Assembly (NCBI RefSeq): GCF_031178195.1 | Contig: NZ_JAPSJL010000002.1 | Coordinates: forward strand, 371,593-435,592 | Direction of reading: 5' to 3' | Origin: Zhihengliuella sp. | Lineage (GTDB): Bacteria; Actinomycetota; Actinomycetes; Actinomycetales; Micrococcaceae | Length of the DNA: 64,000 nucleotides | In this document: piece by piece, positions 18,255 to 42,561 of the stretch | How positions within the stretch are numbered: position 1 is the first letter of the stretch | How the letters are laid out: each line of letters starts with the position of its first letter | Position numbers and translations under genes: made by a program | Notes under the pieces: model-generated | The model's database searches: none | What the model was told of the DNA's origin: nothing | The model's input: only the letters and a program-made list of their open reading frames with translations

Positions 18255-19769
18255 ATGAGCTACATCATCGCGATCGACCAGGGCACCACCAGCAGCCGCG
18301 CCATCGTCTTCGACCACTCGGGCGACATCGTCTCGGTCGGGCAGAAGGAGCACGAGCAGATCATGCCGCGCGCCGGCTGGGTCGAGCACGACCCCGCCGA
18401 GATCTGGACCAACGTGCGCGAGGTCGTCGGTCAGGCGCTCTCCCGCGCCAACCTGACCCGGCACGACATCGACTCCGTCGGCATCACCAACCAGCGGGAG
18501 ACCGCCGTCGTCTGGGACAGGAACACCGGCGAGCCGGTCTACAACGCCATCGTCTGGCAGGACACGCGGACGCAGCGGATCGTCGACGAGCTGGCCGCCG
18601 ACGGCGGCACGGACCGATACAAGGACCGCGTCGGCCTCCCGCTGGCGACCTACTTCGCCGGGACCAAGGTCAAGTGGATCCTGGACAACGTCGACGGCGC
18701 CCGGGAGCGGGCCGAGGCCGGCGACCTGCTCTTCGGCACCACGGACTCGTGGGTCCTCTGGAACCTCACGGGCGGGACCAACGGGGGCGTCCACGCCACC
18801 GACGTCACGAACGCCTCGCGCACCCTGTTCATGGACCTGGAGACGCTGACCTGGAACCAGGAGATCCTCGACGACTTCGGCGTCCCGGCGTCGATGCTGC
18901 CGGAGATCAAGTCCTCCTCCGAGGTCTACGGCACCGTCGCCGGATCGCAGCTGCTCCGCGAGGTGCCGGTCGCCGGCATCCTCGGCGACCAGCAGGCGGC
19001 CACCTTCGGCCAGGCCGCCTTCGGGCAGGGCGACGCGAAGAACACGTACGGCACTGGTTGCTTCCTCATCTTCAACACCGGCGAGGAGATCGTCCGGTCG
19101 CAGAGCGGGCTCCTGACCACGGTCGCGTACAAACTCGGTGACGAGCGGACGGTCTACGCGCTCGAGGGCTCGATCGCCGTCGCCGGCTCCCTGGTGCAGT
19201 GGTTCCGCGACCAACTGGGCATCATCGCCACGGCCCCCGAGATCGAGCAGCTGGCCAGCAGCGTCGAGGACAACGGCGGGGTCTACATCGTGCCCGCCTT
19301 CTCGGGGCTCTTCGCCCCGCACTGGCGACCCGAGGCCCGCGGGGCGATCGTCGGCCTGACCCGCTTCGCCAACCGGAACCACCTGGCCCGGGCAGCACTG
19401 GAAGCCACGGCGTTCCAGACCCGCGAGGTGCTCGACGCGGTCAACTCCGACGCCGGGGTGCCGCTCAGCGAGCTCCGCGTCGACGGCGGCATGGTCGCCA
19501 ACGACGCGCTGATGCAGTTCCAGGCGGACATCCTCGGGGTGCCGGTGGTCCGGCCCCGCATCATCGAGACCACGGCCCTCGGCGCGGCCTACGCCGCTGG
19601 CCTGGCCACCGGGTTCTGGAACGATCTCGGCGAGCTCACGGCCAACTGGTCCGAGGACCAGCGCTGGGCGCCGGCGATGGAGGAGGCTGAGCGCGAGCGT
19701 CAGATGCGCCTCTGGCGCAAGGCCGTCCAGCGCACCCTCGACTGGGTCGACGAGGACGTGTCCGGCTGA
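18255..19769 (+). CDS. glpK: Glycerol kinase
   Basis: Phosphorylates glycerol to glycerol 3-phosphate, trapping glycerol that enters through GlpF. The 504-residue FGGY kinase begins [14 protein letters not shown] and has the [12 protein letters not shown] and [14 protein letters not shown] motifs. The ATG follows AAAGGAG. A 13-bp terminator hairpin follows. The product is the substrate of GlpD and a plausible signal for the SorC-type regulator. Confidence 0.97.
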
Positions 19770-19813
19770 CGTCCGGCCCCGCGGTCCCGGCACGGAAGAG
19801 CGACGGAGGCGAG

Positions 19814-19845
19814 GGGACGACGGCGGCGCGCACCGCCGTCGTCCC
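19814..19845 (+). terminator. Terminator after glpK
   Basis: A perfect 13-bp inverted repeat (19814-19826 against 19833-19845) with a 6-base loop, 44 bases after glpK and just before the leuS leader promoter. Confidence 0.7.
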
Positions 19846-19858
19846 GTCGCCGGTGCGC

Positions 19859-19864
19859 TAAACT
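19859..19864 (+). promoter_or_regulatory. -10 box of the leuS leader transcript
   Basis: TAAACT is followed by exactly six bases and the ATG of the leader peptide, so the predicted transcript start is at or next to that A. No clear -35 box is visible; the region 17 bases upstream is inside the glpK terminator. Confidence 0.5.
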
Positions 19865-19870
19865 GACCGC

Positions 19871-19897
19871 ATGGATCTGTCCCTCCAGCTAACGTAG
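19871..19897 (+). CDS. Leucine leader peptide of leuS (MDLSLQLT)
   Basis: An eight-codon reading frame, ATG GAT CTG TCC CTC CAG CTA ACG TAG, encodes a peptide with three leucines, the last read by CTA, a codon expected to be rare in so GC-rich a genome. It starts at the predicted transcription start and lies upstream of alternative RNA hairpins and an intrinsic terminator, all before leuS. This is the standard layout of ribosome-mediated attenuation: stalling at the Leu codons when charged leucyl-tRNA is scarce would favour leuS expression. Attenuation of leuS has been predicted in some Streptomyces. Confidence 0.7.
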
Positions 19898-19963
19898 CCG
19901 CGCGGAGCCCCGCCATCCGGGGCCATCGTGCGGCGACCCCTTGTCTACAAGGGGTTTTTGTTT
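19897..19963 (+). promoter_or_regulatory. leuS transcription attenuator
   Basis: Three elements follow the leader peptide. A hairpin GCCCCG/CGGGGC (19907-19912 with 19918-19923) lies inside a 5-bp stem GCCGC/GCGGC (19897-19901 with 19930-19934). A canonical intrinsic terminator has an 8-bp stem (19936-19943 with 19948-19955), a TCTA loop and a run of T (TTTTGTTT). The CCCC of the terminator's left arm (19937-19940) can instead pair with GGGG at 19919-19922, giving an antiterminator that competes with both hairpins. A T-box is excluded: there is no conserved GGTGG-type T-box motif. The terminator is the most T-rich one in the window. Confidence 0.7.
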
Positions 19964-20015
19964 GTCTGGGAGGAAATCTCCCGCACCCGTTCAACCAGCG
20001 AAGGCGAATCGACCC

Positions 20016-22508
20016 GTGAGCACGCAGCACAGCGAAACCCCAGAGGCCACGTACAGCTTCAAGGACATCGAAGCGAAGTGGGGGCCGGTGTGGGAGCAGA
20101 CGGGCGTCTTCACGGCTGCGGAGGACGACGCCCGCGAGCGGCGCTACGTGCTGGACATGTTCCCGTACCCCTCGGGCGACCTGCACATGGGCCACGCCGA
20201 GGCCTTCGCCATGGGCGACGTCGTGGCGCGCTACTGGCGCCAGTGCGGTTACAACGTCCTGCACCCGATCGGTTGGGACTCCTTCGGTCTCCCCGCGGAG
20301 AACGCCGCGATCAAGCGCAACGCGCACCCGGCGGAGTGGACCTACACGAATATCGACACCCAGGCGGCGTCGTTCAAGCGCTACGGCATCAGCGCGGACT
20401 GGTCCCGCCGTCTGCACACCTCCGACCCCGAGTACTACCGCTGGACCCAGTGGCTCTTCGCCCGCTTCTACGAGAAGGGGCTGGCCTACCGCAAGAACCA
20501 CCCGGTGAACTGGTGCCCCAAGGACCAGACCGTCCTGGCCAACGAGCAGGTCGTCGACGGTGCCTGCGAGCGGTGCGGAACACCCGTGACCAAGAAGTCC
20601 CTCAACCAGTGGTACTTCCGGATCACGGATTACGCAGACCGGCTGCTCGAGGACATGGACCAGCTCAAGGGGCACTGGCCGGAGCGCGTCCTGCTGATGC
20701 AGAAGAACTGGATCGGCCGCTCCGAGGGCGCGCACGTCGACTTCGCCATCGAGGCCGCCGGCGAGCGACCGGAGCAGAAGGTCACCGTCTTCACCACGCG
20801 CCCGGACACCCTCTACGGGGCCACGTTCTTCGTGGTCGCCGCGGACGCCGAGCTCGCCGACGAGCTGGTGACCGCCGACCGGCGCGCCGAGCTCGCCGCC
20901 TACCAGGAGCGGATCAAGGCCCTCAGCGAGATCGAGCGTCAGTCCACCGAGCGCGAGAAGACCGGCGTCTTCACCGGACGCTATGCGATCAACCCGCTCT
21001 CCGGCGAGAAGCTGCCCGTGTGGGCGGCCGACTACGTGCTGGCCGACTACGGGACCGGCGCCATCATGGCCGTGCCCGCCCATGACCAGCGCGACCTCGA
21101 TTTCGCCCAGACCTTCGACCTACCCGTGCGCGTCGTCGTCGACACCGGCGAGGAGGACCCGGCGGAGACGGGCGTCGCAACGGCCGGAGAGGGCACCCTG
21201 GTCAACTCCGGCGAGCTGGACGGCCTGGCCAAGGCCGAGGCGATCGCCCGCGCCGTCGAGATCCTCGAGGCCGCCGGCACGGGGGAGCGGACCGTGAACT
21301 TCCGTCTGCGCGACTGGTTGCTCTCGCGGCAGCGCTTCTGGGGCACGCCCATCCCGATCGTCCACTGCCCGGACTGCGGCGAGGTCCCCGTTCCCGACGA
21401 CCAGCTGCCCGTCCGTCTCCCGGACGACCTGAAGGGCGAGGACCTCGCGCCGCAGGGAACGAGCCCGCTCGCCGCTGCGACCGACTGGGTCAACACCGAC
21501 TGCCCGGCGTGCGGCGGACCCGCTCAGCGCGACACCGACACGATGGACACGTTCGTCGACTCGTCCTGGTACTTCCTGCGCTACCTGTCCCCGGACTACA
21601 CGGAGGGGCCGTTCGACCCCGAGGCCGCCCGGCAGTGGATGCCCGTCGGCCAGTACGTCGGCGGGGTGGAGCACGCCATCCTGCACCTGCTCTACGCCCG
21701 GTTCTTCACCAAGGTCATCCACGACCTGGGTCTGCTCGAGGTCTCCGAGCCGTTCGCGGCCCTGCTCAATCAGGGGCAGGTGCTCAATGGCGGCAAGGCG
21801 ATGAGCAAGTCACTCGGCAACGGCGTGGACCTCGGCGAGCAGCTGGACCTGTTCGGCGTCGATGCCGTCCGCCTGACGATGATCTTCGCCTCCCCGCCCG
21901 AGGACGACGTCGACTGGGCTGACGTCTCCCCGTCCGGCTCCGCGAAGTTCCTGGCCCGCGCGTGGCGCCTGGCCGGCGACGTCTCGAGCGAGCCGGGCGC
22001 CGACCCCGCGGCGGGGGACCCGGGCCTGCGTTCTGTCACGCACCGGACCGTCGCAGAGTCCGCCGAGCTGCTGGACGCGGGCAAGTTCAACGTCGTCGTC
22101 GCCAAGCTCATGGAACTGGTCAACGCGACCCGCAAGACCATCGACACCGGTGCGGGCGGGGCGGACCCGGCCGTGCGCGAGGCCGTCGAGGCCGCGGCCG
22201 TCATCCTCAGCCTCTTCGCGCCCTACACCGCGGAGGACATGTGGGCCCGCCTCGGCCACGAGCCGTCCGTGGCCAACGCGGGCTGGCCCGCTGTCGACCC
22301 GGACCTGCTCGTCGAGGACACCGTCATCGCCGTCGTGCAGATCAAGGGCAAGGTGCGCGATCGTCTCGAGGTCGCCCCCGACATCTCCGAGGACGAGCTA
22401 CGCGCGGCCGCCCTCGCGTCCTCGGCCGTCCAGCGGATCCTCGACGGTCAGGAGCCCCGGAAGGTGATCGTCCGGGCGCCCAAACTGGTCAACATCGTCA
22501 CCGCCTGA
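20016..22508 (+). CDS. leuS: Leucyl-tRNA synthetase
   Basis: Charges tRNA-Leu with leucine. The 830-residue class I synthetase has the HMGH signature (57-60), the AMSKS loop (595-599), the CP1 editing domain between them and the anticodon-binding C-terminal half. I place the start at the GTG at 20016, ten bases after GAAGG; the open frame runs upstream to 19941 but that lies inside the attenuator terminator. degV starts four bases after its stop. Expression is probably set by the attenuator at 19897-19963. Confidence 0.96.
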
Positions 22509-42467: not shown

Positions 42468-42498
42468 TTGCGGCGTCGGCCCGCGCCGGTGCTAGCGT
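42468..42498 (+). promoter_or_regulatory. Promoter of the leuA leader
   Basis: TAGCGT at 42493-42498 lies six bases before the leader ATG at 42505. TTGCGG at 42468-42473 could be the -35 box, but the spacer is 19 bases, which is long. The predicted transcript starts at the leader start codon. Confidence 0.45.
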
Positions 42499-42504
42499 GT
42501 GCCC

Positions 42505-42561
42505 ATGCGTTGGACGTCGCTTCTTCTAGTTCGCCGCGGTGAGGGCCCACGGGGAGACTGA
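42505..42561 (+). CDS. Leucine leader peptide of leuA
   Basis: An 18-residue frame, MRWTSLLLVRRGEGPRGD, with three consecutive leucine codons CTT CTT CTA (42520-42528) followed by a valine codon. Three Leu codons of types disfavoured in a GC-rich genome, immediately upstream of leuA, are the signature of a leucine-sensing leader. The stop codon lies in the loop of the first downstream hairpin. Confidence 0.75.
   Translation: MRWTSLLLVRRGEGPRGD

Follow-up and report, generated by a model that had tools for sequence, protein, structure and literature searches.

A predicted leucine-responsive attenuator before leuS in Zhihengliuella and its family, built around a rare leucine codon beside a hairpin

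The window, the whole 64,000-nucleotide stretch of Zhihengliuella DNA that was analysed, carries at 20016-22508 an open reading frame that we take to be leuS, the gene for leucyl-tRNA synthetase, from general sequence knowledge and from the first-pass annotation. The open reading frame upstream, which presumably encodes a glycerol kinase, ends at 19769. For the interval between the two genes, the first-pass annotation had described a -10 box TAAACT, an eight-codon leader with three Leu codons of which CTA is the last, a nested hairpin and a canonical terminator, and all of these elements are confirmed where it placed them: the box is present at 19859-19864, the leader was recovered by translation of 19871-19897, the hairpin was located by folding at 19897-19934 and the terminator, with its U-rich tail, came from a terminator scan and a fold. 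The features of the locus, together with a second leader discussed below, are as follows.

19859-19864, plus strand: -10 box TAAACT, putative promoter of the leader (sequence; TANNNT box in relatives)
19871-19897, plus strand: leader peptide MDLSLQLT, 8 codons followed by the stop TAG, predicted to be leaderless (translation)
19889-19891, plus strand: anchor (sensor) Leu codon CTA, with stem 1 beginning 5 nt later (codon conservation)
19897-19934, plus strand: stem 1, the nested first hairpin, starting from the G of the leader stop codon (folds, covariation)
19935-19963, plus strand: intrinsic terminator, hairpin 19935-19956 and U-rich tail to 19963 (terminator scan, fold)
20016-22508, plus strand: leuS, leucyl-tRNA synthetase, GTG start, the gene under putative control (open reading frame, LeuS-like matches in relatives)
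42505-42561, plus strand: separate leader before leuA (MRWTSLLLVRRGEGPRGD; Leu codons CTT CTT CTA), not part of the leuS switch (sequence)

The leader ATG at 19871 stands 6 nt past TAAACT, and the Leu codons of the peptide are, in order, CTG, CTC and CTA. The terminator hairpin directly abuts stem 1 and runs into the tail TTTGTTTGTC, and leuS starts 52 nt downstream of the attenuator segment (19859-19963). A leader reading frame with Leu codons therefore lies before leuS with an intrinsic terminator between leader and gene, as in ribosome-mediated attenuators, and the leader, predicted to be leaderless, and its terminator sit directly upstream of the gene, as in actinobacterial leuS attenuators. 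The RNA of 19860-19970 folds at -50.9 kcal/mol, about 4 sd below its shuffled counterparts (mean -37.3, sd 3.4, n=200; 0/200 as stable), and the terminator scan returned 2 overlapping sites on the 19935-19956 stem vs 0.1 expected. The promoter scan found no sigma-70-consensus promoter, -35 consensus included, and the -10 box, together with its conservation in relatives, is therefore the basis for assigning a leader promoter. Rfam 15, T-box included, gave 0 matches at the gathering score in the whole window and, on 19800-20050, sub-threshold matches only, none of them relevant. Between the upstream gene and the -10 box there is also a perfect 13-bp inverted repeat without a U-run (19814-19845; GGGACGACGGCGG / CCGCCGTCGTCCC), and similar repeats occupy the same place at loci L008-L011; it is perhaps the terminator of the upstream gene, and its 3' arm would overlie the -35 region of the leader promoter.

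It is conservation in relatives, rather than the lone sequence, that carries the attenuator beyond chance. We sought leuS in 197 genomes of the family, found it in 195 and read the upstream region in 149, among the matches listed. In 117 of these 149, leuS is preceded by a -10 box and then a short leader containing Leu, and TTTT stands at the expected place of the terminator in 114 of the 117, so that peptide and terminator, on whose conservation the first-pass annotation had staked its reading, are both kept. The leader is found in 116/120 genomes of 19 genera (the exceptions are L106, L109, L119 and L217), and in the genera g3, g4, g6, g11, g12 and g13 it is found in 1/29, a doubtful case (L221); leuS can therefore do without it. 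Removal of L221, L153 and L148, which failed the TTTT filter, left a set of 114 leaders, in which the TANNNT box precedes the leader start by 6 nt (89/114) or 7 nt (25/114), the leader is 8 codons long in 93 and the start codon is ATG in 103. By eye, the sequence past the U-run (similar to TTTTGTGTGTCCGG; e.g. L012, L094) looks alike in many genera, and this likeness extends further than an intrinsic terminator should need.

Stem 1 is held in place on both sides, as it begins 5 nt after the anchor codon in 86/111 leaders and ends 0-1 nt from the terminator in 97/111. When its outer seven positions were anchored without folding, 6.26/7 were paired (genus mean, 111 leaders), vs 5.12/7 with 3' arms swapped in from other genera (sd 0.11, best of 200 runs 5.45) and 4.20-5.69 of 7 when the 5' arm was displaced by 1-3 nt. 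The outer four pairs are nearly invariant and the variation lies in pairs 5-7; stem 1 thus covaries across relatives. Of the comparative signals that the first-pass annotation had put forward, the covariation of this stem is borne out, as is the conservation of one of the Leu codons, whereas the antiterminator pairing did not rise above controls, as detailed below. When the RNA was masked to 15 nt past the start of the codon at which the ribosome would stall, a position taken to be the ribosome edge, predicted formation of stem 1 fell from 0.99 to 0.01 (110 leaders). In three g8 genomes (leader MSALELSQPR) the stop beside the anchor is lost and reading continues into stem 1, and 11 of 19 leaders from outside the family likewise lack this stop and are translated into the stem. 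The Leu codon of such leaders still occupies its usual place before stem 1, and the spacing between codon and hairpin, rather than the stop, therefore looks like the kept feature. In L103, L133, L134 and L153, natural leaders, the TAG beside the anchor reads CAG, and stem 1 is translated.

The codon kept at this place is rare. Next to stem 1, the 114 leaders have the Leu codons CTT (82), CTA (28), CTG (3) and CTC (1), i.e. CTT or CTA in 110/114, and simply taking the last Leu codon gives 81, 28, 2 and 3, respectively. CTT and CTA account for 6 and 4 of the 436 Leu codons in nine window genes, and together for 0 to 13% of the Leu codons in leuS of nine genera. Of 80 named loci, 34 matched (five of the 80, L023, L028, L042, L045 and L071, had <300 nt upstream); 11 of these are near relatives (L012-L022), 19 were picked by eye as Leu-run leaders, and L046, L052, L061 and L075 were left out. 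The 19 leaders picked by eye come from other families (Nocardioides, Nonomuraea, Actinomadura and others); their anchor is CTT in 19/19, and CTT and CTA together make up 27 of 1241 in the corresponding leuS genes. The first-pass annotation had pointed to three Leu codons in the leader, but 15/114 leaders, 9 of them in one genus, have a single one, and the conserved feature is one rare Leu codon in a fixed position. In genus g23, for instance, the anchor is the only Leu codon in 9/9 leaders kept (e.g. MNPKRNLV; the dropped L148 has two), and in the genus of the window, where the anchor is CTA in 5/5, the other Leu codons are spaced or absent (MVLRPVLR, MVVPPVLR). The rare codon would serve the sensitivity of the switch.

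The choice between the two rare codons is shared with another leader of the same genome. The leuA leader of the window (42493-42561) repeats the arrangement TAGCGT, 6 nt, ATG, and we compared the leuS and leuA leaders in 95 genomes. In the genera with a CTA anchor before leuS (g1, g22, g23, g27, g30), the leuA leader contains CTA in 28/28 genomes, vs 4/66 in the genera with a CTT anchor, and two of those four (g18) have CTA elsewhere in the leuS leader. The match of leuS anchor to leuA last codon is looser (CTT/CTT 59, CTA/CTA 17, CTA/CTT 7, CTT/CTA 2, CTA/CTC 1, CTA/CTG 1, CTG/CTT 3, CTC/CTT 1, no leuS leader 4); we prefer the count of any CTA because the last Leu is an imperfect guide in g23, where the final Leu of the run varies. 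On the LeuS tree the CTA anchor needs 2 changes, having arisen at least 2 times, one origin being in a well supported clade and the other in g27; forcing the six CTA rows together was rejected (p-AU 0.021), and with g18 added it was not (0.071). With just 2 independent pairs, the paired test of leuS against leuA cannot reach significance. CTA is also the one Leu codon that the ilvB leader contains in this genome and in four congeners. At L246 (G000 contig C15, before an ilvB-like gene) this leader reads MQSIITVLRVTERVA, with a terminator-like GGGGTTTTTTT further downstream, and the single CTA recurs in L242-L245.

A reduced form of the leuS leader occurs in genus g28. In three of the five g28 genomes read (L160, L180, L185), MAYFLG, a leader whose one Leu codon is CTT, leads straight into a terminator that occupies the place of stem 1, and the other two (L175 and L181) have two hairpins. 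The terminator of the three is predicted at 0.91-0.98 when free and, when masked, at 0.00 with the edge at +15 and 0.00-0.36 at +12. With the terminator in that position, a stalled ribosome would itself keep it from folding, and the one-hairpin form would, in this model, act by direct occlusion of the terminator.

The conservation of leader, Leu codon position, covarying stem 1 and terminator in 19 genera supports well the reading of the locus as a leucine-responsive, ribosome-mediated transcription attenuator of leuS, to which we assign a probability of roughly 0.6, and which probably raises leuS output when leucine is low. We propose the following series of steps. Transcription would start at the leader ATG, judging from the -10 spacing, and a ribosome would initiate on the leaderless mRNA. 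With ample charged leucyl-tRNA, the 8 codons would be finished, the ribosome would leave and stem 1 would form; the terminator would then fold alongside, and most transcripts would end near 19963. When leucyl-tRNA is scarce, the ribosome would stall with the rare CTA in its A site and cover the 5' arm of stem 1, and the freed 3' arm and loop could then delay, or compete with, folding of the terminator 5' arm, which would allow readthrough into leuS. The weakest step is how loss of stem 1 would lead to readthrough, because no specific antiterminator is conserved. The classical attenuation logic of the first-pass annotation is well supported, by conservation in 19 genera, as far as a leucine-responsive leader attenuator of leuS is concerned, and falls short at its antiterminator.

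The textbook version of this mechanism has three segments, with a specific antiterminator that was placed, in the first-pass annotation, at GGGG 19919-19922 and CCCC 19937-19940. Both strings exist and are complementary; folding, however, engages GGGG in the inner 6-bp hairpin and gives almost no GGGG/CCCC pairing. When masked transcripts were folded, cut ahead of the terminator 3' arm, 1.1/9 terminator-arm nucleotides of the window paired upstream if the mask was set at the last Leu codon, and 4.6/9 if it was set at the stop codon, which runs contrary to that logic. Some relatives can form an antiterminator, as in the congener L011, where 7.5/8 arm nucleotides pair upstream under the Leu-codon mask, and the ilvBNC attenuator of Corynebacterium glutamicum is described with three hairpins including one (PMC11857589). 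Set-wide, however, the 110 relatives average 3.33 nt of cognate upstream pairing (genus mean), within the range of segments from other genera (3.10, sd 0.20, max 3.45) and below shuffled ones (4.07); the arm is paired to at least 60% in 10/110 leaders and to less than 30% in 50/110. Across the 110 leaders, then, no antiterminator mutually exclusive with the terminator rises above swapped or shuffled controls, and the proposed GGGG/CCCC element is not upheld; a conserved antiterminator is not supported, although a single species may have one, and we regard the textbook version as unlikely. Folding of the full-length RNA gives the terminator a mean of 0.99 whether masked or not (lowest 0.91 masked), and any antitermination must therefore be kinetic. 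The locus would accordingly work like a ribosome-mediated attenuator with a different or kinetic switch. Such a switch could lie in stem 1 itself, acting as a pause or termination-helping hairpin, either through stacking on the terminator or through a pause of RNA polymerase, so that a stalled ribosome lowers termination by removing it. Its position 0-1 nt from the terminator in 97/111 leaders, its covariation and the want of a conserved antiterminator argue for this possibility, while the three one-hairpin relatives, which are entirely without stem 1, speak against it; on balance we hold it possible but doubtful.

A further alternative concerns the anchor codon, whose CTT/CTA bias might stem from a cis cause, i.e. 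RNA structure or sequence near the hairpin, instead of codon rarity. The fixed distance between anchor and stem 1 would agree with this. Third-base G/C is, however, kept at the neighbouring codons (142/188, 238/377 and 80/111) and is found in 4/114 at the anchor, so that general AT-richness does not explain the bias either. A pairing of the Leu-codon run with the region before leuS, as proposed for the LEU element of leuA, was tried and rejected, being no better than with swapped partners (4.96 vs 4.76 bp; duplex energy -8.36 vs -8.06 kcal/mol). The choice of CTT or CTA moreover tracks the separate leuA leader (28/28 vs 4/66 genomes), and we consider a cis cause very unlikely. The simplest reading of the CTT/CTA match is a cause in trans such as tRNA supply; there are no tRNA genes within the 64,000-nt window. 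Our tentative wider proposal, which we rate at a little under even odds, is that actinobacterial Leu leaders would be built on one rare sensor codon, with CUU or CUA set genome-wide and leuS, leuA and perhaps ilvB switching together, as a case of selective tRNA charging on the scale of lineages in which the codon follows the first-emptied leucine isoacceptor, and that the leuS switch would need no conserved antiterminator and could be reduced to a single hairpin with a single Leu codon. A literature search with most subscription journals outside its reach found neither the CTT/CTA anchor rule nor a joint leuS/leuA codon switch in actinobacteria.

The leuS attenuator itself is of an already known kind; what deserves further attention is the rule of the rare codon and the form with one hairpin. 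Classical leuS attenuators, with a Leu-codon leader and a terminator hairpin before leuS, were predicted in Streptomyces avermitilis and S. coelicolor by Seliverstov et al. in 2005 (PMC1262725), as the first-pass annotation had noted for some Streptomyces. Its suggestion that a leaderless version would be new does not hold, since the 2021 reannotation of S. lividans TK24 already describes LeuL2 (MRAVRLLLSEPR), leaderless and with a terminator hairpin and uridine stretch, before leuS (PMC8079986). Compared with the published descriptions for Streptomyces, the window leader has 8 codons, its Leu residues are spaced as L-x-L-x-L and CTA comes last, and the antiterminator named in the 2005 prediction is unsupported here (PMC1262725). 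The LEU element of actinobacterial leuA leaders is similarly Leu-rich, and the leuA leader of the present genome ends in the same rare codon as its leuS leader; unlike the leuS switch, the element lies before leuA and has been described as forming a pseudoknot, with no obvious terminator (PMC1262725). The mutation work on the ilvB and leuA leaders of S. coelicolor, as cited in PMC1262725, did not fit classical attenuation and counts against the attenuator reading here. The C. glutamicum ilvBNC attenuator shares a leader 1 nt past the transcription start, a first hairpin, a terminator and a CUU control codon, and differs in an overlapping antiterminator that shares GCC with the terminator, in its response to other amino acids and in serving a biosynthetic operon (PMC11857589). 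The enterobacterial leu attenuator likewise uses rare CUA control codons, the replacement of which by CUG lowered sensitivity in Salmonella typhimurium, and the theory of codons suited to attenuators takes up the CUA of this leader; it controls a biosynthetic operon, however, and not a synthetase gene, with a classical II:III antiterminator in the general model (PMC1183508).

The results extend a single predicted attenuator to a comparative set of more than 100, which shows what selection keeps: neither a Leu run nor an antiterminator, but a single rare Leu codon whose distance to a hairpin is fixed. The one-hairpin form would represent a leucine-regulated terminator reduced to a minimum. If the wider proposal is true, the theory of selective charging, developed on Escherichia coli, would become testable in another phylum through the tRNA supply of the CUA and CUU lineages.
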